Shown here: positions 4,374 through 55,047 of the stretch, piece after piece
Numbering within the stretch: the first letter of the stretch is position 1
Layout of the letters: every line of letters starts with the position of its first letter
From: Oscillospiraceae bacterium
GTDB lineage: Bacteria; Bacillota; Clostridia; Oscillospirales; Ruminococcaceae
Assembly (NCBI GenBank): GCA_009781425.1
Contig: WQYC01000002.1
Location: 1-64,000 of the forward strand
Reading direction: 5' to 3'
DNA: 64,000 nucleotides
The notes under the pieces: generated by a model
What the model was told of the DNA's origin: nothing
The model's input: only the letters and a program-made list of their open reading frames with translations
Databases searched by the model: none
Made by a program: the position numbers and the translations under genes

Positions 4374-4946
4374 ATGAAAAACACATTAGTATTGCACAAA
4401 TCTGCACTTAAAACAAAATCGCTTGTAGCCTTAGCGGCGATTGCCGCCGCGGTTGCGCTTCCGCAAGTTTTCCACTTTCTCGGCGTGCTTTCGGGAATCG
4501 CAAGCCCCTCAGGTATCGGCGCGACCTTCCTGCCTATGCACATTCCTGTTTTCATCGCCGCTTTTATGGCAGGGCCTGCCGTCGGTTTAATCGCGGGTGT
4601 AATGAGTCCGCTCGTCAGCTACGGCTTCACAATGCTCGCTTTCGGTACGGCAATGCCCGCTTTGGCATTACTGCCGTTCATGATGCTTGAGCTCGCAGGC
4701 TACGGATTCGCGGCAGGTCTGCTCAGCAAAGCCAAAACACCGATGCTTCTGAACCTCGTGATTGCACAGGCTGCAGGGCGCGCGCTTCGCACTGCTGCAG
4801 TTTTAGTCGCTGTTTTTATTCTCGGAATAAATAATCCGCCGTCAGCCGTCAGCACAATCTGGACGACGATTACAATCGGACTGCCGGGAATCATGCTGCA
4901 ATGGGCGTTAATCCCGCTGTTCATTCACCGCTTTAAAAAGTCATGA
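4374..4946 (+). CDS. ECF transporter S component-like membrane protein
   Basis: 190 aa, hydrophobic; GIGATFLPMHIPVFIAAFMAGPAVGLIAGVMSPLVSYGFT typical of ECF S components. Confidence 0.7.
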   Translation: MKNTLVLHKSALKTKSLVALAAIAAAVALPQVFHFLGVLSGIASPSGIGATFLPMHIPVFIAAFMAGPAVGLIAGVMSPLVSYGFTMLAFGTAMPALALLPFMMLELAGYGFAAGLLSKAKTPMLLNLVIAQAAGRALRTAAVLVAVFILGINNPPSAVSTIWTTITIGLPGIMLQWALIPLFIHRFKKS

Positions 4947-5377
4947 CCGACCTTGAAAAAGCAAGAGCCTTGTTAGCAGACGGCAGCTTCGGCAATTGTA
5001 TACTTTACAGGAACGGTACGATTCACGCTTCTCACGGCAAGGGAATCGCTCCCATGCTTGAGTTTTTGGAAGCAGGAATCGACATGACGGACTTCTCCGC
5101 CGCAGATACAGTTGTTGGGAAAGCATTAGCTTTTCTGTTTGTTCATGCAGGTGTTAAAGAGGTTTATGCCGATGTTATGAGCGAGAGCGCAGTTAAAATT
5201 TTATCGCTTTACAGAGTCCGCCATGTTCACGGCGAGCTCGTCGAGCAAATTAAAAACCGCGCCGGCAACGGAATCTGCCCGATGGAGAGCGCGGTTGAAA
5301 ATATAGAAGGTCACGACGAGGCTTACGAAATTTTGAAGGCTAAATACACTGCCTTGACTCGCAATACTCGCAGGTAG
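4943..5377 (+). CDS. DUF1893 domain protein
   Basis: LYRNGTIHASHGKGIAPMLEFL...ADTVVGKALAFLFVHAGVKEVYADVMSESA; ATGA overlap with upstream gene. Confidence 0.7.
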   Translation: MTDLEKARALLADGSFGNCILYRNGTIHASHGKGIAPMLEFLEAGIDMTDFSAADTVVGKALAFLFVHAGVKEVYADVMSESAVKILSLYRVRHVHGELVEQIKNRAGNGICPMESAVENIEGHDEAYEILKAKYTALTRNTRR

Positions 5378-6413
5378 CCACGCCGCCTTTTATAATAAAG
5401 CTGTGCGGTAAATGCGGTTCTTTCTGTAATATGCAGTTCTCATTTTTGCACTTTATGCCACCATCGCCGTCTTGCGCTTCGCCTTTAAGAAGCACGGGCG
5501 GCGTTATGTTGTAGTTCAGAATAATCAGGATTAACGCCATTCTGACGTACATTCCGTAGTGCGCCTGCTTGAAATAAAGCGCGCGCGGGTCGCTGTCAAC
5601 AGCGACATCAATTTCATTGAGTCTCGGGAGCGGGTGCATGACTATCAAGTCATCGCCTGCTTTTTTCATTTTCTCCGCGTCTAAAATATAACGCGAAGCC
5701 TGCTTCTCATATTCCGCCTCGCTCGCGAACCGTTCCTTTTGAATCCGCGTCATGTAAAGCACGTCCAGCCCGCCAATTACCTCATCTATAGAATCAGACT
5801 TGCTCCATTTTTCAAGCGGCGCGGTTATGTATTCGGGCATTTGCAATTCCTCAGTCGAAATAAAAACAAAGCTGTTCCCCTCGTAGCAGGACAAAGCCTT
5901 GACGAGCGAATGCACAGTTCTGCCGTATTTCAAGTCGCCGCAAATCCCGATTTTCAGCCCCGTGAGTCTCCCCTTTTCCTTATGCAGGGTCAGCATATCG
6001 GTGAGCGTTTGCGTGGGGTGCAGGTGCCCGCCGTCGCCCGCGTTTATAATCGGGCAGTCCGCGGTTAGCGCGGCGGCTTTCACCGAGCCCGCGACAGGGT
6101 GCCGCATTACCATTATGTCGGAATAGCCCGAAACAGTTTTCGTGGTGTCCTTGAGGCTCTCACCCTTCATAACGCTCGAAGCCGTAGGATTATCAAAGCC
6201 GATAATCCCGCCGCCGAGCCGAAGCATCGCACTCTGGAAGCTCATCTGCGTCCTCGTGCTCGGCTCATAAAACAGCGTTCCCATAATTTTTCCGCGGCAA
6301 GAAGCCTCATAAATATGCGGGTTGTCCATAATTTTTTCGCCGAGGTTAATAATTTCGTCCCACTGCGATTTCCCGAAGTCGTTGAGGTCGATTAGGTGGT
6401 TGAGGTTTTTCAT
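5340..6413 (-). CDS. pyrB: Aspartate carbamoyltransferase catalytic chain with C-terminal PyrI-like zinc-binding extension
   Basis: FYEPSTRTQMSFQSAMLRLGG, MRHPVAGSVKAAA, DGGHLHPTQTLTDMLTL; C-terminal C-x4-C-x20-C-x2-C. Confidence 0.9.
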   Translation of the reverse strand: MKNLNHLIDLNDFGKSQWDEIINLGEKIMDNPHIYEASCRGKIMGTLFYEPSTRTQMSFQSAMLRLGGGIIGFDNPTASSVMKGESLKDTTKTVSGYSDIMVMRHPVAGSVKAAALTADCPIINAGDGGHLHPTQTLTDMLTLHKEKGRLTGLKIGICGDLKYGRTVHSLVKALSCYEGNSFVFISTEELQMPEYITAPLEKWSKSDSIDEVIGGLDVLYMTRIQKERFASEAEYEKQASRYILDAEKMKKAGDDLIVMHPLPRLNEIDVAVDSDPRALYFKQAHYGMYVRMALILIILNYNITPPVLLKGEAQDGDGGIKCKNENCILQKEPHLPHSFIIKGGVATCEYCESRQCI

Positions 6414-14516: not shown

Positions 14517-14563
14517 ATGACCCACCCGCGACTCGAACGCGGGACACCCTGCTTAAAAGGCAG
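14517..14563. repeat. attL (displaced 3' part of tRNA-Lys)
   Basis: atgacccacccgcgactcgaacgcgggacaccctgcttaaaaggcag, identical to 55001-55047. Confidence 0.95.
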
Positions 14564-29029: not shown

Positions 29030-30830
29030 AAAAATATTTCTTACATTAAAGCCGCCGCCGGATATGACGCTTGCTGAGTGGGCGGATGAATATCGCGTGT
29101 TGTCACAAAAGACTTCTGCCGCGCCGGGTAAGTGGAAAACGTCAAAAGCACCTTATCAAAAGGAAATAATGAACGCGATTTCGGACATAGGAGTTCACAA
29201 AGTCGTAGTTATGTCGGCGGCACAAATAGGGAAAACTGACGGATTTATACTTAATCCGATTGGTTATTTCATGGATTATGACCCTTGCCCCATTATGGTT
29301 ATGCACCCCGATTTGCAAAGAGCAGAGGAATTCAGCAAAACTCGGCTGACGTCAATGCTTCGTGATACTCCTGTGCTTCGTGATAAAGTAAACGACAAGA
29401 CACGCAATAGCGGAAACACGATTTTGCACAAGGAATTCCCCGGCGGTTATGTTGCTATTGTCGGTGCGAACTCGGCGGCAGGGCTAAGCAGTCGCCCTGT
29501 GCGAATATTGCTTGCTGATGAAGTTGACAGATACCCTACTTCAGCCGGATTAGAAGGCGACCCGCTTTTACTTGCGTCAAAGCGTTTAACCACGTTTTGG
29601 AATAGAAAAGAAGTATTTATTTCAACACCTACAATTAAAGGTATATCACTTATTGAAATTGAATTTGAGAACAGCACACAGGAAACATGGAACGTTCCCT
29701 GCCCCGACTGCGGCGAGTTTCAGCCGCTTGAATGGGCACAAGTAAGCTTCGATAAAGAGAACCTTGACGAAATTAATTATATTTGCGCTTATTGCGGTTC
29801 GGTTAATTCCGAAATTGCATGGAAAGAAAAGTTCACAAGCGGCAAGTTTATTGCGAAGTTCCCCGAACGAAAAACGCGCGGTTTTTACCTTAATAGCTTC
29901 GCTTCGCTTTTTGTAGAGTGGAAAGAAATAGTTGAAAAGTTTCTTATAGCGAATAAGGAAGCTAAAAAAAGAAATTTTGAAAAGATGAAAGCATGGACTA
30001 ATACCGAAATGGGGCAGGTTTGGGAAGAGGAAGGCGATAAGCTTGAACCTGATGAGTTGTACAACCGCCGCGAGAAATATAACGCGGAAGTACCCGAAGA
30101 TGTTTTATGTCTTACCGCCGGAATTGATACACAGGACGACCGTTTCGTTGTTGAAGTCGTCGGGTGGGGTGAGGAAAAGGAATCGTGGGGAATTATTTAT
30201 AAAAAAATTTACGGTGATTTAAAACAGCATAAAGTATGGAACGACTTAGACACTTTTTTAAATCAGACGTTCACCCGCGCTGACGGAGCGAAGCTAAAAA
30301 TTATCTGCGCTTGCATGGACACGGGCGGACACTTTACAAACGAGGTTTATAAATTCTGTAAACCGCGATACACACGCGGAATACGTGCAATTAAAGGCGG
30401 TAACACCGGATATGGAAAGCCATTTATTCCTAAACCGTCTAAAAGCAATAATGTAGGAGTTCTTCTTTGGACGCTCGGAGTTGATACCGGAAAGGCATTT
30501 ATATATTCGCAGCTTGCTATTACTGAAGAGGGAGCTAACTACTGCCACTTCCCTAAAGGTAATAAAAACGAAGACACCGCAGGATATGACGAAGAATATT
30601 TCAAAGGCTTAACATCTGAACACAGGGTTACGAGATATAAACGAGGCAGAGCACAGTATGTTTGGGAACTTAAAAATAAAAGCTACAGGCGCAATGAGCC
30701 TCTCGATTGCCGAAACTACAACTTGGCGGCGTTAGAGATTTCGGGTATTGTATTAAAGAAAGAAGAAGCAAATAACAAAACACCACAAACAAAAAAGAAA
30801 GGCAGAAGTATCCGAGGCGGAATAAAATAA
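29001..30830 (+). CDS. Terminase large subunit (lambda GpA family)
   Basis: MTLAEWADEYRVLSQKTSAAPGKWKTSKAPYQKEIMNAISD, VVVMSAAQIGKTDGFILNPIGYFMDYDPCPIMVMHPDLQRAEEFSKTRL. Confidence 0.93.
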   Translation: MKKATLKLFKKIFLTLKPPPDMTLAEWADEYRVLSQKTSAAPGKWKTSKAPYQKEIMNAISDIGVHKVVVMSAAQIGKTDGFILNPIGYFMDYDPCPIMVMHPDLQRAEEFSKTRLTSMLRDTPVLRDKVNDKTRNSGNTILHKEFPGGYVAIVGANSAAGLSSRPVRILLADEVDRYPTSAGLEGDPLLLASKRLTTFWNRKEVFISTPTIKGISLIEIEFENSTQETWNVPCPDCGEFQPLEWAQVSFDKENLDEINYICAYCGSVNSEIAWKEKFTSGKFIAKFPERKTRGFYLNSFASLFVEWKEIVEKFLIANKEAKKRNFEKMKAWTNTEMGQVWEEEGDKLEPDELYNRREKYNAEVPEDVLCLTAGIDTQDDRFVVEVVGWGEEKESWGIIYKKIYGDLKQHKVWNDLDTFLNQTFTRADGAKLKIICACMDTGGHFTNEVYKFCKPRYTRGIRAIKGGNTGYGKPFIPKPSKSNNVGVLLWTLGVDTGKAFIYSQLAITEEGANYCHFPKGNKNEDTAGYDEEYFKGLTSEHRVTRYKRGRAQYVWELKNKSYRRNEPLDCRNYNLAALEISGIVLKKEEANNKTPQTKKKGRSIRGGIK

Positions 30831-30835
30831 AATAT

Positions 30836-30905
30836 TTCACACAACTTTCACACAAAACCTCTTGACATTATGTCTTGCATGAAATATAATATATGTAAGA
30901 CATAA
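30836..30905 (+). promoter_or_regulatory. Moron cassette 1 promoter plus palindromic operator
   Basis: TTGACA(30862)-17-TATAAT(30885); 13-bp arms TTATGTCTTGCAT/ATGTAAGACATAA flank the -10. Confidence 0.75.
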
Positions 30906-30919
30906 AGTGAGGTGATGAA

Positions 30920-31093
30920 TTGAGTCCAAGAACAGGTCGACCAAAGGGCGAAAATCCTATATTCAAAAGTCTTACAATTCGGCTCGATACAAAAACCGAA
31001 AAAATACTTAATAAGTATTGTGAGGAAAATCAAGTTAGCCGTGCAGAAGCTATAAGGCGAGGGATTCACCTAATCGGTCAGCAAAAGAAATAA
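30920..31093 (+). CDS. Ribbon-helix-helix (CopG-like) regulator, TTG start (not in ORF track)
   Basis: (M)SPRTGRPKGENPIFKSLTIRLDTKTEKILNKYCEENQVSRAEAIRRGIHLIGQQKK*. Confidence 0.75.
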   Translation: MSPRTGRPKGENPIFKSLTIRLDTKTEKILNKYCEENQVSRAEAIRRGIHLIGQQKK

Positions 31094-31226
31094 GAGCAAC
31101 GCTCCACCTTGGACAGTTTAGCGTTACTCTTATCAACCCGACAGAGTTTCCTCTATCTGAAATCCATTATATCAGATAGAGAAGCTCCTGTCAAGTATTA
31201 AAATTTGAAAAGGAGTTTTTATTATG
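31091..31226 (+). repeat. Cassette structured spacer, copy 1
   Basis: Gap-free alignment to 46557-46692; last 103 nt 101/103 identical; two stem-loops. Confidence 0.9.
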
Positions 31227-42844: not shown

Positions 42845-45800
42845 ATGAGTAACCGAAAGAATTATGAGCTGATAATGCAAATCAAAGGTGAGCTCGGCGG
42901 AAATTTCCGAGGGACATTTAACACCGCCTCCGAATCTGTAAGAGGACTTCAAAAAAATCTTACTGACATACAGAAAACACAGAAAGATATTTCATCGTAT
43001 CAGGCTACGCAAAAGGCAATAGACGAGCTTAAAACTAAAAAACAAGAGCTTATTAATACCGACGGCGTTAAGGCATCTGAAATAGAAAAAGTAAACAGAG
43101 AGCTTGATAAGCAAACGCAGAAGCTTGGTGGATTGAGCGACAATCTCAAAACCGCAGGCGTAGACACTAATAATTTAACTAACGAAAATAATCGTCTTAG
43201 TGACGAATACGATAAATTAAAAGAAAAACAAGAAAAATTAGCGACGCTCGAAAACTGGCAGCAGAAGAATTCCGAAGCGTTGTCAAGGGCGCGTGCTGAC
43301 TTTTTGGCGACAAGTGCTGTCGTTGCGGCGGCGGGAGCTACATTCTATAAAGCATTTATTTCCCCTGCGGCGGATTTTGAATCCGAAATGAGCAATATTG
43401 CAGCTCTTACCGGGTATAATGCAGAGCAGATGAAGCGGCTCGGCGACGAAGTGCGTGCTACAGCGCAGGCGACAGGTACGCCCATTGGTGAGCTCGCGGC
43501 AAAAGCTAATCAGCTCGTTGAAGTCGGCGGAGACTTAGATTTAGTTGTAGCGCAAATGCGTTATGGTACTAACTTAGCAAATGCGACACGCACCGAAATA
43601 GGGCTTGTTTATGACTTCACCAGCGCGGCAATGAAGACTTTCCATATGGAAGCGGAGGAGAGCCGTTCTGTTATGGACAGCATGGCATATACGACTTCGC
43701 TCACGAACCTTACGCTTTCGCAGATTTCGGAATCGTATGTAAACGTGGGAGGCTCGGCGAAAACTGCGGGCTTCGGGATTAATGACGTAAATGCACAGTT
43801 AATAGTAATGTCAGAGGCAGGGCTGAAAGGCGGCGCGGCGGGAACGTCGTTGAACGCGATTTTGCGGAATCTATCAACGCCCACAGCGAAAGCCTCCGGT
43901 GCGCTTAAAGAACTCGGTGTTGACTTATATGACGCTGAGGGCGCAAGCCGCAATATGTTTGATATTATGGGCGATTTACAAAATCGCCTTTCAGATTTTT
44001 CAGACGAGGAAAGAAATAACACGCTTTCTGATATTTTCGACACAGTCGCGCTCAAAGGCTGGAATATGATTGCTGACGAGGGTATTGAAAATATTCGAGA
44101 GCTTAGCGAGAATATTGAGGGCGCAAGCGAGAAGTATGGCGGACTTGGACAGTCGGCAGGCATGGCAGGCGTTCAGATTAATAATTTAAAAGGCGATTTG
44201 GCTCTAAATAAAGTCGCTATTTCAGAGCTCGGAATGTCTGTCGGTGAAATATTTCTGCCGAATATGCGCGCAGGAGCTCAGGGCATGACAGAAATGATAA
44301 ACAATGCATCTGCTTGGGTTAGAGAAAATCCCGAAACAGTGCGGCAGGTGGTCGAGCTTGCGGGGAAAATCGCGGTGCTGACGGTCGGGGTTAAGGGGTT
44401 TACGCTCGCTAAGGCGGCGGCAACAAAGCAAATCATAGGCTTTAAGATGATGGCAAACGGAGCGGCGGCGGGTTCGGGGACATTAGCGCGGTCGTTACAG
44501 ACAATGAATCCAATAGTTGCGGCAGTAGGATTGACAGCGGCAGGGCTTGCAGTTGCAATTGAGCTTAATAAAAAGAAAATGCGTGAGCTTCGTGAGGAGT
44601 ACGCTGACCCGATACTTTTTGATAATGGAGGTAGAAAATTAAGTGAAATTACAGACGAGTTTATTAAAAACACTCGTTATGTATACGAAAACGCACAAGC
44701 AACAATTGCTGTAAATGAACGCGTCAATGAATTACGTTATGACTTTCAAGGTGCAAGTCGGGACATTGACATTTATGGTAATAATTTAAGACGTAACGGC
44801 ACATTATCGGCAGATGAAGCTAATGCTTTACGCGAACCAATTGCAGATTTAGCAGAATTATTAAATCAAATTACAAATGTTAGATTTGAAGGTATTATTA
44901 ACGGTTTTAAGAGTGCTGCGGGAATAGCTTCTGAACTTGGGGTTGACGTCGCAAAAGTTGTCGGCGGACTTGAAGAGCTTAATCGTCGTCATAATGATAA
45001 CATAACAAATTCACAAGCCATAATTGACGATTATTTAAAAGCTGTTTATTTAGGCGAAGGAACGACTAAGGAAGAACGTTTAGAATTCCAAAGAGAAATG
45101 GAATATCAACGCGCTCTTGAAACTCGCGAGGAACGCCGCGCATTGGAAATAGAAACTGAAAGATTTTCACAAATTAATTTCGGCTCTGATTATAAAACAA
45201 TGCAAGAAAATGTTGAAAGTTTTATTGAGTACAGAGATGATTTAATACGTTCCATCTACGAAGCGAATAAAGCAGACATGGAATTATATAATGATTCAAT
45301 TTGGCAAGTAAAAGACGATTACGAATTCGGAAAAATATCACACCATGAATTCGAGAACGCTATTAAATTATTAGAATTTACACATAGTGCTACACAAGAA
45401 TCAGCATACAAAGCTATTGAAGCGATAATTGAAGAAACTAATGGTGTTTTAGAAAGAGCATTAACACAGGCGCAAATAGCAGAATTAAGCATATATAACA
45501 ACATGAATAATGCAGAACGTATATTATCGGGGTTTGTAGGTAAATGGCATACATCGGGTGACTATGACTCTATTATCGCAGGTTCAAACAAGGCATTATT
45601 TGACACAAGGAATTATATCGCAGACAGCATTTTAGGCACATATAACAATCCAATATTTATAGATGCCGGATTACAGCACAGGGTCAGAGAAAATATAAGC
45701 GGATTCCTCACACCCGAAGCGTCAGTAGAATATTACACTCAAAAAGGCAATACATTTGACGCTGTTATGCGCGCATTTAACTCCGGTGAACTTGACGATT

Positions 45801-46042
45801 ATAGAATCAATAGCAGAAGCAAAAATAATTTACAACCGATTAACGTGACTATTGACGACAATAGCGGCAAGGAAATAAAAGTTGAGGTGAATTATGCGCC
45901 TGTAGTTAATAATTACGGAAATTCTGACGAATTAGAGGAAATGTTAGACAGGCAGAGAATCAAGCTAATGCAGGACGTTGACGATAAACTACGCGAAAAC
46001 GCAGCGTTTGAGAAGAGAACAAGTTTTAAAATTAGGGGTTAA
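42845..46042 (+). CDS. Tail tape measure protein
   Basis: 1065 aa; coiled-coil start, MSNIAALTGYNAEQMKRLGDEVRATAQATGTPIGELAAKANQLVEVG. Confidence 0.93.
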   Translation: MSNRKNYELIMQIKGELGGNFRGTFNTASESVRGLQKNLTDIQKTQKDISSYQATQKAIDELKTKKQELINTDGVKASEIEKVNRELDKQTQKLGGLSDNLKTAGVDTNNLTNENNRLSDEYDKLKEKQEKLATLENWQQKNSEALSRARADFLATSAVVAAAGATFYKAFISPAADFESEMSNIAALTGYNAEQMKRLGDEVRATAQATGTPIGELAAKANQLVEVGGDLDLVVAQMRYGTNLANATRTEIGLVYDFTSAAMKTFHMEAEESRSVMDSMAYTTSLTNLTLSQISESYVNVGGSAKTAGFGINDVNAQLIVMSEAGLKGGAAGTSLNAILRNLSTPTAKASGALKELGVDLYDAEGASRNMFDIMGDLQNRLSDFSDEERNNTLSDIFDTVALKGWNMIADEGIENIRELSENIEGASEKYGGLGQSAGMAGVQINNLKGDLALNKVAISELGMSVGEIFLPNMRAGAQGMTEMINNASAWVRENPETVRQVVELAGKIAVLTVGVKGFTLAKAAATKQIIGFKMMANGAAAGSGTLARSLQTMNPIVAAVGLTAAGLAVAIELNKKKMRELREEYADPILFDNGGRKLSEITDEFIKNTRYVYENAQATIAVNERVNELRYDFQGASRDIDIYGNNLRRNGTLSADEANALREPIADLAELLNQITNVRFEGIINGFKSAAGIASELGVDVAKVVGGLEELNRRHNDNITNSQAIIDDYLKAVYLGEGTTKEERLEFQREMEYQRALETREERRALEIETERFSQINFGSDYKTMQENVESFIEYRDDLIRSIYEANKADMELYNDSIWQVKDDYEFGKISHHEFENAIKLLEFTHSATQESAYKAIEAIIEETNGVLERALTQAQIAELSIYNNMNNAERILSGFVGKWHTSGDYDSIIAGSNKALFDTRNYIADSILGTYNNPIFIDAGLQHRVRENISGFLTPEASVEYYTQKGNTFDAVMRAFNSGELDDYRINSRSKNNLQPINVTIDDNSGKEIKVEVNYAPVVNNYGNSDELEEMLDRQRIKLMQDVDDKLRENAAFEKRTSFKIRG

Positions 46043-46050
46043 GTAAAACT

Positions 46051-46106
46051 TTCACACAACTTTCACATAAAACCTCTTGACATTATGTGGATACATATGT
46101 TATAAT
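46051..46106 (+). promoter_or_regulatory. Moron cassette 2 promoter
   Basis: ttcacacaactttcacataaaacctcttgacattatgt 37/38 identical to cassette 1; TTGACA(46077)-18-TATAAT(46101). Confidence 0.75.
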
Positions 46107-46156
46107 GATAACAAACAAGGGAAGCTTGTAAATATCATTTAACAGGAGGTGAAAAA

Positions 46157-46321
46157 ATGACTACTAAAGAATTTGAAAGTTTAACCGGTGGAATGGCATT
46201 AAACACGATTAAACTAAAACGCGGTGAAATGTCTATAGAAGATTTTGAAAAGTATATGAAAATGACATTAGGCACAGAAATGTTTCAAAAAGCTATAGAA
46301 ATCTTAGACGGAAAAGAATAA
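46157..46321 (+). CDS. Small cassette protein, 54 aa (not in ORF track)
   Basis: caggaggtgaaaaa-ATG; MTTKEFESLTGGMALNTIKLKRGEMSIEDFEKYMKMTLGTEMFQKAIEILDGKE*. Confidence 0.6.
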   Translation: MTTKEFESLTGGMALNTIKLKRGEMSIEDFEKYMKMTLGTEMFQKAIEILDGKE

Positions 46322-46325
46322 CAGC

Positions 46326-46360
46326 AAGGGGCGGGGAGCCGCCCTCCCTGCCCCTTTATT
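46326..46360 (+). terminator. GC-rich stem-loop terminator inside cassette 2
   Basis: aaggggcggggagccgccctccctgcccctttatt. Confidence 0.65.
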
Positions 46361-46397
46361 GAATAACAGGGGGTGAATCGCAACGGAAAAGAAAGCA

Positions 46398-46559
46398 ATG
46401 GGCAGACCGACAGACGACCCTAAAAATTTAAGCACAAGAATTAGACTGTCGGATAAAGACATCGAAATGATTGATTTTTGCTGTGATTTTTATAGCATCA
46501 CAAAGGCAGAGGCAATAAGGCGCGGTGTCAAAGAATTATATGAAAAAGCAAAGAAATAA
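46398..46559 (+). CDS. Ribbon-helix-helix (CopG-like) regulator 2 (not in ORF track)
   Basis: MGRPTDDPKNLSTRIRLSDKDIEMIDFCCDFYSITKAEAIRRGVKELYEKAKK*. Confidence 0.7.
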   Translation: MGRPTDDPKNLSTRIRLSDKDIEMIDFCCDFYSITKAEAIRRGVKELYEKAKK

Positions 46560-46692
46560 GAGCAACACTCTACTTTCGACGGTTAAATGTTACTCTTATC
46601 AACCCGACAGAGTTTCCTCTATCTGAAATCTATTATATCAGATAGAGAAGCTCCTGTCAAGTATTAAAATTTGAAAAGGAGTTTTTATAATG
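46557..46692 (+). repeat. Cassette structured spacer, copy 2
   Basis: Gap-free alignment to 31091-31226. Confidence 0.9.
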
Positions 46693-46959
46693 CAAAAAAT
46701 CACACAGCAAGAAGTAAAAAACATCAAAAACTATTTATATGAAAATAAAGTCCACAGCTATCCATGCAACTGCGGAAGCTTACCCAGAATCATAGTCGAG
46801 CGCACAACATGGGGTACTCCGGTAATAATTATGAAATGCCAAAACTGTAAAAACACAAGCTCAGCAATCGGCACAACTCACATTGATGCATTAAATAAAG
46901 CGTTAAACCACTGGAATCATAAACAAGAACGTATTACACTAATGGGGGTATCGGCATAA
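46690..46959 (+). CDS. Lar-like (restriction alleviation family) zinc-ribbon protein (cassette 2 cargo)
   Basis: SYPCNCGSLPRIIVERTTWGTPVIIMKCQNCKNTSSAIGTTHIDALNKALNHWNHK. Confidence 0.6.
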   Translation: MQKITQQEVKNIKNYLYENKVHSYPCNCGSLPRIIVERTTWGTPVIIMKCQNCKNTSSAIGTTHIDALNKALNHWNHKQERITLMGVSA

Positions 46960-48729
46960 ATGGGTGAAATTGTAACAGTTAAAAATCAAGCCACGATTGA
47001 GAATTATTTAAAGGTAGATGAACACAACACGGTTTCATCTATTAAACTGTATGAGTTTTTAAAACTGCCGCCGGATAATTACAATCAATGGTGCAAAAAG
47101 AACATTGAGGATAATCCGTTTGCCTTTATCGGTGAGGATTATGCAAATTACTTCACCTACGAAGAGCGTGGAAAGAAGAAAATAACAATTTACAGGCTCT
47201 CTGTAGAATTTGCAAGAAAGCTTAGTGTTTTATCCGATTCTAACTATAGATATGCGGCTTTTCATTACTTTAACCGCATTTTAGACGAGCTTGAGCCGAG
47301 CGAGTTAAGCACGGTAAATCATTACGAAACAATCGACAGCCGAGAAGTTGCGGAGATGATTGGTAAGCGACACGACCATTTAATCAGAGATATTCAAAAA
47401 TATTGCGAGGTTTTAGGAGCCCCCAATTTTGGGGACTCCGAAGGAAACTTCAAAATTGAGGACTCCGCAGGAGAAACCAAAAATGGATTATCCGATTTCT
47501 TCATTGAAAGCAATTATATCAGCGAACAGAATAAAAAACTCCCCTGCTACCTCCTCACCCGCAAAGGCTGTGAATTCGTAGCTAATAAAATGACAGGCGA
47601 AAAAGGCATAAAATTTACAGCGGCATATATCAACAAGTTTCATGAAATGGAAAAGACTTTGCAATCGCCTACAAAATTCAAACAGATTGAATCTAATTTT
47701 GATATTAAAACAACAGAAATTAAAATTAGACTATCAAACCAATATTTAAAGCTGTCTAAATTATCCGCGCTATCGCAGGAAGAAAGAGACGCTAACCAAG
47801 TAACAATTAACAATGAACAATTAACAGTAGGGGCGAACAGTGTTAGCCCGAATAACAGCGGCGCGAACGGATTAAAAGGCATGACGATTTCTGCTGTTAT
47901 AATTCAGCGCAATTGGAATGGAGACGGGAAAGACCGCGTTATGGACTGCGGAAGCTTTGAAATTGACGACTTGGGAAGTAACGGCGGTGCTGACAGGGGT
48001 TCTACGGTGACCTTGAAATGCACTTCGCTTCCAAATTCATCTACCGTGCGAACGCAGGAGAAGTCACGGGCGTGGGAAAATATTAAGCTTTCGTCGATTG
48101 CGGCTCAGATTGCTAAAACAAACGGCATGGACATTATGTTTATATCTGATTTTGACCCTGTTTACGAGAGGCGTGAGCAGGTGCTTGAATCGGATATTTC
48201 GTTTTTAAGCGGACTTTGTTATAACGCAGGGATTTCGCTAAAAGTTACGAGCGGAATAATTGTGCTTTTTGACGCGACGGAATTTGAGAAAAAGCCTGCT
48301 GTGCGGAAAATTGAACGAGGAAAAGCTGACATTAAATCGTGGCGGTTTAATGCGTCTACCAATGATGCGAATTATTCGCGCTGCCGTGTTAGCTATACGA
48401 ATCCTGTTACGGGGATTACGATTGAGTATACATACACGCCGCGCGACGCTGACCCGGACGGGATTACGCTTGAAATTAACGAGAAGGTAAGCTCGAGGAA
48501 TGAGGCGCGGAATCTTGCAATGCGAAGATTACGGCAGAAAAACAAAGAAGCGTTTTCGGCGGCGTTTACACTTGTCGGGGACGTTAGTTTATTTGCGGGG
48601 GTTTGCGTAGAGGTCGTAAGGTGGGGATATTTTGACGGCAAGTATATTATTTCACGAAACACAAGCAGTATAACCGGAAGCGGATATACTGCACAGTTAA
48701 TGTTGAGGCGGGCGGAGGACGAAGAATGA
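46960..48729 (+). CDS. AntA-Rha antirepressor fused to N-terminally truncated gpD (late control/baseplate hub)
   Basis: AntA: YLKVDEHNTVSSIKLYEFLKLPPDNYNQWCKKNI; Rha: ETIDSREVAEMIGKRHDHLIRDIQ...YLLTRKGCEFVANKMTGEKGIKFTAAYINKFHEME; gpD: TISAVIIQRNWNGDGKDRVMDCGSFEIDDL...ESDISFLSGLCYNAGISLKVTSGIIVLFD. Confidence 0.85.
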   Translation: MGEIVTVKNQATIENYLKVDEHNTVSSIKLYEFLKLPPDNYNQWCKKNIEDNPFAFIGEDYANYFTYEERGKKKITIYRLSVEFARKLSVLSDSNYRYAAFHYFNRILDELEPSELSTVNHYETIDSREVAEMIGKRHDHLIRDIQKYCEVLGAPNFGDSEGNFKIEDSAGETKNGLSDFFIESNYISEQNKKLPCYLLTRKGCEFVANKMTGEKGIKFTAAYINKFHEMEKTLQSPTKFKQIESNFDIKTTEIKIRLSNQYLKLSKLSALSQEERDANQVTINNEQLTVGANSVSPNNSGANGLKGMTISAVIIQRNWNGDGKDRVMDCGSFEIDDLGSNGGADRGSTVTLKCTSLPNSSTVRTQEKSRAWENIKLSSIAAQIAKTNGMDIMFISDFDPVYERREQVLESDISFLSGLCYNAGISLKVTSGIIVLFDATEFEKKPAVRKIERGKADIKSWRFNASTNDANYSRCRVSYTNPVTGITIEYTYTPRDADPDGITLEINEKVSSRNEARNLAMRRLRQKNKEAFSAAFTLVGDVSLFAGVCVEVVRWGYFDGKYIISRNTSSITGSGYTAQLMLRRAEDEE

Positions 48730-48971
48730 ACGTAAGAATCGGGGCTGTGAGTTCGGTTGATACCATAAATAGGACAGCGAGGGTAAGCTTCGCTGATAAG
48801 CCGAGCGAAAACGGAAGACCGCTTGTTTCTGCGCCGCTTGCTATTATGCAAAATCCGCCTGTAATTTCATCAATCAGCGTTCAGCCGTGGTTGCCAAAAG
48901 TCGGTCAGACAGTACTTTGCATTTTTTTGCCGAATGGCGAGGGCGACGGCGTTATTATCGGAGGGTTGTAA
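48726..48971 (+). CDS. Short baseplate assembly protein V-like
   Basis: IGAVSSVDTINRTARVSFADK...WLPKVGQTVLCIFLPNGEGDGVIIGGL. Confidence 0.7.
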   Translation: MNVRIGAVSSVDTINRTARVSFADKPSENGRPLVSAPLAIMQNPPVISSISVQPWLPKVGQTVLCIFLPNGEGDGVIIGGL

Positions 48972-48973
48972 AT

Positions 48974-49375
48974 ATGGCACGGATTGGAGCTTTGGGTGAT
49001 ATACCCTTTTTTGTTTCTAATAAACAAATACGCACTTTCAATAATATGCGCTGGGATAGCTCGGCGAGATTCGCCACGCACAATAGGCATAACAGAGACG
49101 CGCTTTTAGAATTTACGGGAATAAACATAGACACAATTAGCTTTACTATGAATTTTTCAGTAAATTTAGGTACTAATCCTATGGCGGAGCTTGATAAGCT
49201 TTGGAAAGCGGAGCGACGCGGTGACGCGATGGTGCTTATTTTAGGCATAAAAATTATAGGTAGCAGACAGTGGGTTATAACAAGGCTTTCAAGGACGCTC
49301 GACAGATTCGATAATCAAGGTAATTTGCTCGCGGCAAGGGTAACTGTGACACTCAATTCATATTCAAGGCGGTAA
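48974..49375 (+). CDS. Phage tail protein gpU-like
   Basis: Start revised to MARIGALGDIPFFVSNKQIRTFNNMRWDSSARFATH...GSRQWVITRLSRTLDRFDNQGN. Confidence 0.75.
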   Translation: MARIGALGDIPFFVSNKQIRTFNNMRWDSSARFATHNRHNRDALLEFTGINIDTISFTMNFSVNLGTNPMAELDKLWKAERRGDAMVLILGIKIIGSRQWVITRLSRTLDRFDNQGNLLAARVTVTLNSYSRR

Positions 49376-49379
49376 TGAC

Positions 49380-49667
49380 ATGAACATAAATATTATGCCC
49401 GCCTCGCGTGAGGAGGAAATAAAGCAAAATGTCGCTATGATTTTAGCGACGCCGACATTTTCGGTGCCGCTTGACCGTGAGTTCGGAGTAAGCACGGATA
49501 TTACCGACAGACCTATTCAAGTCGCGCAGTCGCTGATTACCTCTGAAATATACGAAAAAATAGGCAGATACGAGCTGAGGGCAGAAATAGTCAGCATTAC
49601 ATTTGAGCGTGACGATAAAAACGGAAAGCTGATTCCGAAAGTGGAGGTGACGGACAATGGACAATGA
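49380..49667 (+). CDS. Baseplate gpW/gp25-like
   Basis: EEIKQNVAMILATPTFSVPLDREFGVSTDITDRP. Confidence 0.75.
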   Translation: MNINIMPASREEEIKQNVAMILATPTFSVPLDREFGVSTDITDRPIQVAQSLITSEIYEKIGRYELRAEIVSITFERDDKNGKLIPKVEVTDNGQ

Positions 49668-50802
49668 ACAATTGACAATTGACAATTTACGAAGTTTACC
49701 CGACGTTAATTTTGTTGATATAAACACGGAAACACTTCTGAACGCTGTTATTTCAGCGGCAGAGGTGTTTTTAGACAGGACGTTATTCCCTGCTGACCCG
49801 GTACGGCAGTTGTTAACATGGCTCGTGGATATAATAGTTCATGAGCGGGTGCTGATTGATACAGCCGCTAAACAAAATTTAGCACGGTATGCTGAGGGTG
49901 ATTATTTAGATTCGCTTGCAGATATGTTCAGAGATGTGCAGAGATTGCAACCGCAAGCGGCAAGGACTACACTGCGCTTTTTTATTTCAGCACAGCAAAA
50001 TTCTGCGGTGACTATTGAAGCGGGCACGCGAGTAAGCGTTAACGGTGAGATTACTTTTGCTACTACCGAAACGGCGACAATACCTATTAATGAAATGAGC
50101 GTCGAAGTGCCTGCGGTGTGTTTAACTACGGGAATAATCGGAAACGGATTCACAGCGGGGCAGATTTCGCAGATTGTGGATTTATTTCCGATGTTTGAGC
50201 GTGTTGAGAATATCACTACCAGCGAGGGGGGAGCGGAGTTAGAGTCTGACGACTCGCTTTACGACAGATACAGGCTGAGCTTAAAAACATTTTCAACTGC
50301 GGGGCCCGAGGCAGCTTATGAGTATCATACGAAGTCGGCGTCTGCGAGAATTGCCGACGCTAAAGCATATACCCCTTCGCCGGGGCGCGTTGATATTCGG
50401 TTTATACTTTCGGACGGAGAGTTTCCCGATGAAGAAATGAAGCAGTTAGTATTAAAAACTGTTTCAGCTGCTGATACTCGGCCGCTGACAGACTTTGTAA
50501 CTGTGAACGCGCCCGACGTTATAAATTTCGACATTGACCTTACATATTTTATTCCTCGGACACGGGAAAACAGCGCGGCGGTTATTCAGAGGGACGTTGA
50601 AGCGGCAATCGAGCAGTATAAATCATGGCAGACGCAAACTATGGGGCGGGATATAAACCCCGATGAGCTTACGGCTTTAATTCGGGGAGCGGGTGCGAAA
50701 AGAGCCGAAATAAGAAGCCCTGCTTTTACTGTTGTTGATAGACGCGCAGTTGCGGTTCTGCAAGTTGAAAACGTAATTTACGGGGGAATCGAAGATGATT
50801 AA
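49657..50802 (+). CDS. Baseplate J-like protein
   Basis: LARYAEGDYLDSLADMF...GTRVSVNGEITFATTETATIP...TSEGGAELESDDSLYDRYRLSL. Confidence 0.88.
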   Translation: MDNEQLTIDNLRSLPDVNFVDINTETLLNAVISAAEVFLDRTLFPADPVRQLLTWLVDIIVHERVLIDTAAKQNLARYAEGDYLDSLADMFRDVQRLQPQAARTTLRFFISAQQNSAVTIEAGTRVSVNGEITFATTETATIPINEMSVEVPAVCLTTGIIGNGFTAGQISQIVDLFPMFERVENITTSEGGAELESDDSLYDRYRLSLKTFSTAGPEAAYEYHTKSASARIADAKAYTPSPGRVDIRFILSDGEFPDEEMKQLVLKTVSAADTRPLTDFVTVNAPDVINFDIDLTYFIPRTRENSAAVIQRDVEAAIEQYKSWQTQTMGRDINPDELTALIRGAGAKRAEIRSPAFTVVDRRAVAVLQVENVIYGGIEDD

Positions 50803-51382
50803 TGACATTTATAATTTCGATTTTACTCGCACTTTACCGCCTGCGCTTAAAGAAAACCCCGAAATGCTTGCAATCGGAAAAGTAATTTCCGAGGCTATGC
50901 GGGAAAATATGAACCTTACGAGAAACGCTGTTATTTATGCGAGGATTGACGAGCTTCCCGAGGATATTCTTGATATAATTGCGCACGATTTGAGCGTGGA
51001 CTGGTACGACGACAGCCATGATATTGAAATAAAACGGCAAGTAATTAAAGACAGCGTGAGAGTGCATAAGCGTCTTGGGACGAAATTTGCGGTTGAGACT
51101 GCGCTGAGTGCTGTTTACCCCGATACGTTTGTGCAGGAGTGGTTTGAATACGGCGGTGAACCGTATATGTTCAGAGTAATAATCACAGCAGACCCGAGCA
51201 ACCCCGAAAAGCAACGGGAGGCGTTAGATAAGATTCATTTTTTTAAGAATCTGCGTTCGCATTTAGAAGAGGTAGTTTACAGGACGCCGATTAACGGTGA
51301 GGCGACAGCGTATGTCGGGGTGAAGCCTGTATCTACATACATGAGAATAAACACGGAGGTGAAATTATATGGCATGGACTGA
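50795..51382 (+). CDS. Phage tail protein I
   Basis: LPEDILDIIAHDLSVDWYDDSHDIEIKRQVIKDSVRVHKRLGTKFAVETAL. Confidence 0.85.
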   Translation: MINDIYNFDFTRTLPPALKENPEMLAIGKVISEAMRENMNLTRNAVIYARIDELPEDILDIIAHDLSVDWYDDSHDIEIKRQVIKDSVRVHKRLGTKFAVETALSAVYPDTFVQEWFEYGGEPYMFRVIITADPSNPEKQREALDKIHFFKNLRSHLEEVVYRTPINGEATAYVGVKPVSTYMRINTEVKLYGMD

Positions 51383-55000: not shown

Positions 55001-55047
55001 ATGACCCACCCGCGACTCGAACGCGGGACACCCTGCTTAAAAGGCAG
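55001..55047. repeat. attR
   Basis: Identical to 14517-14563. Confidence 0.95.

Follow-up and report, generated by a model that had tools for sequence, protein, structure and literature searches.

A probable deletion scar joins an antirepressor to a truncated baseplate hub in a prophage of a termite-gut Oscillospiraceae bacterium

An antirepressor and a clipped hub share one open frame in a prophage tail operon

The window analysed here is a 64,000-nucleotide stretch of the genome of an Oscillospiraceae bacterium (2.55 Mb in 67 contigs, 97.66% complete). It carries a prophage whose limits are set by 47-bp perfect att repeats, from attL at 14517-14563 to attR at 55001-55047 in tRNA-Lys(TTT), and which encodes an integrase, terminase, portal, capsid, tail tube, tape measure, baseplate proteins and an amidase. 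The integrase, the att sites and most of the remaining structural genes appear intact. The best relative of the hub was found in the MAG Oscillospiraceae bacterium Lab288P3bin172, whose Lab288 code stands for Labiotermes labralis in a study of higher-termite MAGs (PMC7024585), and the prophage that bears the fusion belongs to a termite-gut bacterium. The features of the locus are listed below by position in the window, with the relatives L071, G012 and G026 named where a feature was defined or supported by comparison with them.

14517-14563, attL, 47-bp perfect direct repeat
42845-46042, plus strand, tape measure protein (same protein in G012, 73%, and in L071; the cassette lies directly 3' in all three)
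46077-46106, plus strand, cassette promoter-like site TTGACA-18-TATAAT with a dyad over the -10 (Pant-like), a consensus match only; similar site in L071 and G012
46157-46321, plus strand, small ORF of the cassette (54 aa), with homologues in L071 and G012
46398-46559, plus strand, small RHH-like ORF, 53 aa, MGRP...IRLSD; Arc/CopG type by eye, weak family matches
46540-46660, minus strand, consensus promoter TTGACA-17-TATAAT (46660-46632) with an operator-like dyad and a possible hairpin RNA of ~85 nt
46690-46959, plus strand, Lar-like zinc-ribbon protein (weak match)
46960-47790, plus strand, antirepressor part of the fusion, residues 1-277 (AntA, Rha and most of the C-terminal helix), from its domains and the L071 homologue
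47788-47790, plus strand, putative deletion junction, shared GAC codon (D277); antirepressor side from L071 and G012, gpD side from G026 and G012
47788-47880, plus strand, gpD's own linker DANQVTINNEQLTVGANSVSPNNSGANGLKG, containing the AACAATTAACAATGAACAATTAAC repeat, from comparison with relatives
47881-48729, plus strand, gpD hub body, 282 aa and stop, without the N-terminal strands and the SH3-like insert
48726-48971, plus strand, baseplate assembly protein (gpV-like), present
48887-49375, plus strand, gpU-like tail protein, full length against G026
49380-51382, plus strand, gpW, gpJ and gpI, full length against G026
55001-55047, attR, within tRNA-Lys(TTT)

The ORF at 46960-48729 (plus strand) is a single frame of 589 aa with an ATG start, and it had been described from the sequence as an antirepressor joined to a beheaded gpD, a description that the Pfam and PHROG matches bear out. 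AntA (residues 25-92, E 1.1e-6) and Rha (residues 125-232, E 1.7e-26) both score above their Pfam family cut-offs. Phage_GPD covers residues 352-551 and corresponds to profile positions 64-278 (E 6.4e-7); its score was 29.3 bits for the fusion, below the cut-off of 30.1, and 31.3 bits, above it, in the scan of the bacterium's own genome. PHROG 52, a 'tail protein', extends over residues 322-587 (E 9e-55), and the hub body matches the R2 pyocin hub (6u5h, E 4.8e-17). In the predicted fold of the fusion the pLDDT is below 50 over most of the antirepressor half, and the hub half still matches hubs. Compared with AntA and Rha phage antirepressors, of which it has both Pfam domains, the protein is clipped at the C-terminus of its antirepressor (the natural ending ...YARKAAEVLNN is absent, a loss of the last ~12 residues) and has gained 312 residues from the linker and body of the hub.

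gpX and the N-terminal strands of gpD are missing

The preliminary description had also placed the start of gpD some 60 aa into a normal protein and had noted that gpX was missing upstream, and both points hold. By alignment, the loss amounts to ~66-80 residues relative to hubs that have no insert, and to ~148 relative to the gpD of the prophage's own lineage, which has an SH3-like insert after residue ~70. At least 66 residues precede the retained body in 26/26 of the aligned hub homologues with intact starts, and the window's hub body aligns to the R2 pyocin hub from its residue 69. The missing N-terminus found no match anywhere else in the genome, where the retained hub body is the sole GPD match, so that there is no second hub. 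Nor does the tail operon contain gpX: neither the Pfam Phage_tail_X model (for which the gpX of a sister prophage scores just below the cut-off) nor that sister gpX, used as a query that detects gpX in G012, G032 and G056, found a match in the genome.

To place the lost residues structurally, we used the AlphaFold model of the gpD of G056, a genome that served solely as a source of hub sequence and whose gpX is also poorly preserved. The model, of moderate confidence (pLDDT 72.8), has three strands and one helix within its first 51 residues, and contractile-tail hubs and VgrG are its top matches in the PDB; strands 10-16, 29-35 and 44-51 all fall in the part lost from the window. The trimer of T4 gp27 is matched to the sixfold tail by a ring, and one of that ring's two barrels comprises residues 2-111 (PMC3004832). 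The body resembles the P2 gpD, T4 gp27 and R2 pyocin hub family; the N-terminal strands of the first barrel have here been replaced by the antirepressor.

Among the gpD homologues L008-L053, the domains between residue ~70 and the body differ but share one insertion site, after the N-terminal strands; they look wall-binding (SH3b, LysM and peptidoglycan-binding types, assigned by eye except for one SH3 match).

Sister prophages keep gpX and the gpD start downstream of the cassette

In L071, the tape measure gene is followed by two small-gene cassettes in tandem, the antirepressor, a terminator (hairpin of -14.7 kcal, 3' of the antirepressor), gpX and the first gpD codons. The antirepressor is here a free gene of 274 aa, 73% identical to the window's and ending QEEKDSYARKAAEVLNN before its stop. 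G012 has the same succession of tape measure (73%), cassette, antirepressor remnant (ending QEERDKYARKAAEVLNN and a stop), terminator (-15.3), gpX and the first ~48 gpD codons. On this G012 contig (L076, C88) the antirepressor has been cut down to its last ~30 codons, so that this locus has decayed a second time, independently.

G026 supplies the other side of the junction: its hub body is 92% identical, and upstream of the body come the repeat-bearing linker, an SH3-like insert that ends in YGWV and the greater part of the gpD N-terminus. The gpD side reads ...YGWV-HEEQLTINNGQLTIN...GLKG in G026 and ...YGWV-DGQLIIDNFQLTIN...GLKG in G012, and the window reads QEER-DANQVTINNEQLTV...GLKG; it therefore follows the antirepressor through QEER and then gpD from DANQV, i.e. 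from the residue just after YGWV (other SH3-like inserts terminate GWFxxxQV). The low-complexity joint that had been seen between the two halves is thus present, but it is not a new joint, being gpD's own linker, found in the intact relatives.

Within this linker, the AACAATTAACAATGAACAATTAAC repeat (47802-47825) recurs in related form on contigs C10 and C46, and a repeat of similar kind occurs in the same gpD linker of G026 and G012.

A single in-frame deletion would account for the fusion

We consider it probable, at roughly 80%, that the fusion ORF is the scar of a deletion, its frame open by chance, and that it lies in a P2-type prophage that is otherwise well preserved but tail-defective. 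An antirepressor moron would first have stood in the tail operon, 3' of the tape measure gene and 5' of gpX. Later, a single in-frame deletion of ~0.75-0.83 kb would have begun at codon 277 of the antirepressor and reached the end of gpD's SH3-like insert, taking the last ~12 antirepressor codons and their stop, the terminator, gpX and the first ~148 gpD residues; the deletion ends would have had ~3 bp of homology in common, and one open frame would have been left by chance. The gene orders, the absence of gpX and of the gpD head and, by alignment, the missing segment are direct observations (751-825 nt, the sum of 148 codons and the distance that separates the antirepressor D codon from the start of gpD, 307 nt in G012 or 381 nt in L071); the deletion as an event, and its breakpoints, we infer from L071, G012 and G026. 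Insertion of the cassette, to which the loss of gpX and of the gpD N-terminus had initially been attributed, was not the cause, because L071 and G012 keep both gpX and the gpD start downstream of it.

A deletion through the NEQLTINNEQLT repeat was ruled out: the window keeps the gpD residues DANQV upstream of the repeat and is without the antirepressor's YARKAAEVLNN.

Genes fused by deletion are known from decaying prophages, in which a structural gene is lost and illegitimate recombination happens to join what remains in frame. The present case is like these in both respects and unlike them in that the prophage is otherwise well kept, for which reason the event looks recent. The perfect att repeats, the full-length gpU, gpW, gpJ and gpI genes and the purifying selection on the hub body all suggest the same. 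Between the window and G026 the pairwise dN/dS of the hub body is 0.09, and when changes were polarised with G012 the window branch had 12 nonsynonymous and 24 synonymous changes (4.5 and 25.5 for G026). Judged from these counts, the hub body is under purifying selection for most of the branch since the G026 split, with what appears to be a slight nonsynonymous excess on the window side. Such selection fits a recent deletion, but it also fits a hub that is still used.

We regard it as unlikely that the fusion is an assembly artefact, with a normal antirepressor-gpX-gpD region in the strain and a contig that merges two alleles or strains. The genome is fragmented and probably a metagenome bin (its nearest relatives are MAGs), the exact junction occurs in one assembly only (IMG/VR holds one record, of the same sequence), and a multi-copy short repeat adjoins the junction. 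Moreover, the N-terminal region of gpD assembles badly, since the contigs of the nearest relatives break in or near it (G026 begins at about residue 23, G012 C88 stops near 48 and L071 near 10). However, the two sides of the junction have only ~3 bp in common, too little for a k-mer misjoin; the putative junction lies upstream of the repeat, which disfavours chimerism through that repeat; no leftover gpX or gpD head was found on any contig of a genome that is 97.66% complete; and the reading frame is preserved across the junction.

A functional fusion, in which a working hub carries the antirepressor or the regulator has taken in the hub body, seems to us very unlikely. The frame is open over 589 codons, the hub body is conserved, and hubs of the family accommodate sizeable SH3b, LysM or peptidoglycan-binding inserts at that position. 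Yet those inserts follow the N-terminal strands and precede the body; the strands, kept in all 26 intact homologues, are gone from the window together with gpX; no other hub fused to an antirepressor was seen among the hub homologues examined, and one in three random deletions is expected to be in frame. Also very unlikely is an internal start at ATG 47881, which would give a separate 282-aa hub body and leave antirepressor and hub untied as products: a Met codon stands at the first residue of the body in G026 and G012 too, but this residue is internal in the relatives and may be M, L, V or another amino acid, the ribosome-binding site upstream of the ATG is weak by eye, and the product would likewise be without the N-terminal strands.

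Probable consequences for the tail and for the antirepressor

The preliminary description had allowed that the tail may be defective, and it probably is: gpX is gone, and 26/26 intact hubs keep the residues that the window's gpD lacks. The prophage is thus most likely tail-defective, and assembly of a baseplate is unlikely, because gpX is lost and the first barrel of the hub has no N-terminal strands; by analogy with gp27, the window's hub should not form a ring of that type. Expression from the cassette promoter may still yield the antirepressor half, perhaps impaired.

A literature search for antirepressor-tail fusions found nothing relevant. Were the fusion made and used, a hub-tethered antirepressor entering the particle or coupling tail assembly to release from repression, a regulatory protein would have turned virion component, an outcome to which we assign very little probability. 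As a scar, the fusion is a tidy case of prophage decay and not a new kind of protein, and it would have little weight for protein biology unless functional; the probable origin of an odd fusion is here traced through sister genomes that preserve the order before the deletion.

The antirepressor cassette resembles the P22 immI region and carries a duplicated control module

The cassette lies inside the late structural operon and has its own promoter (a consensus match). By its anatomy, it resembles the 'ant moron' (immI) of P22-like phages, which the epsilon34 genome paper describes in the late operon as holding mnt, arc, sar and ant (PMC2629481), the ant genes being apparently degraded in some of these phages (PMC2629481). 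In P22, the late-operon moron upstream of a tail gene combines small repressor genes (Arc/Mnt), an antisense RNA (sar) and an antirepressor; the window's cassette has a small RHH-like gene with weak family matches, a predicted minus-strand RNA and an antirepressor, and may thus be of the same type. In contrast to P22, the window phage is contractile-tailed and of Clostridia lineage, its cassette stands between the tape measure and gpX, its antirepressor is of AntA-Rha type, and its small genes are only distantly alike. Antirepressor morons like that of P22 immI thus occur in contractile-tailed prophages of gut Clostridia, at a spot where deletions harm either the neighbouring tail genes (window) or the antirepressor itself (G012).

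A minus-strand consensus promoter and a strong hairpin are predicted in both the window prophage and L071, and the RNA from 46540-46660 is possibly antisense to the cassette leader; Rfam had no match for this candidate antisense RNA. None of 148 other related genomes contains the exact minus-strand motif, and its IMG/VR matches are confined to the window prophage and L071. The control module (a plus-strand promoter with a dyad, a small RHH-like gene, a minus-strand promoter with a dyad and then the hairpin RNA) is duplicated in the window prophage, at 46045-46690 and, with different cargo, at 30830-31225, and L071 has two copies in tandem (4440-5460). It is possible, by comparison with P22 sar, that the module is a portable regulator for morons. 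In G032, the tail gene cluster of another prophage (L065, contig C54, 827-3225) includes an RHH-like gene and an ORF6N antirepressor, an example by which antirepressor morons among tail genes recur in the genus.
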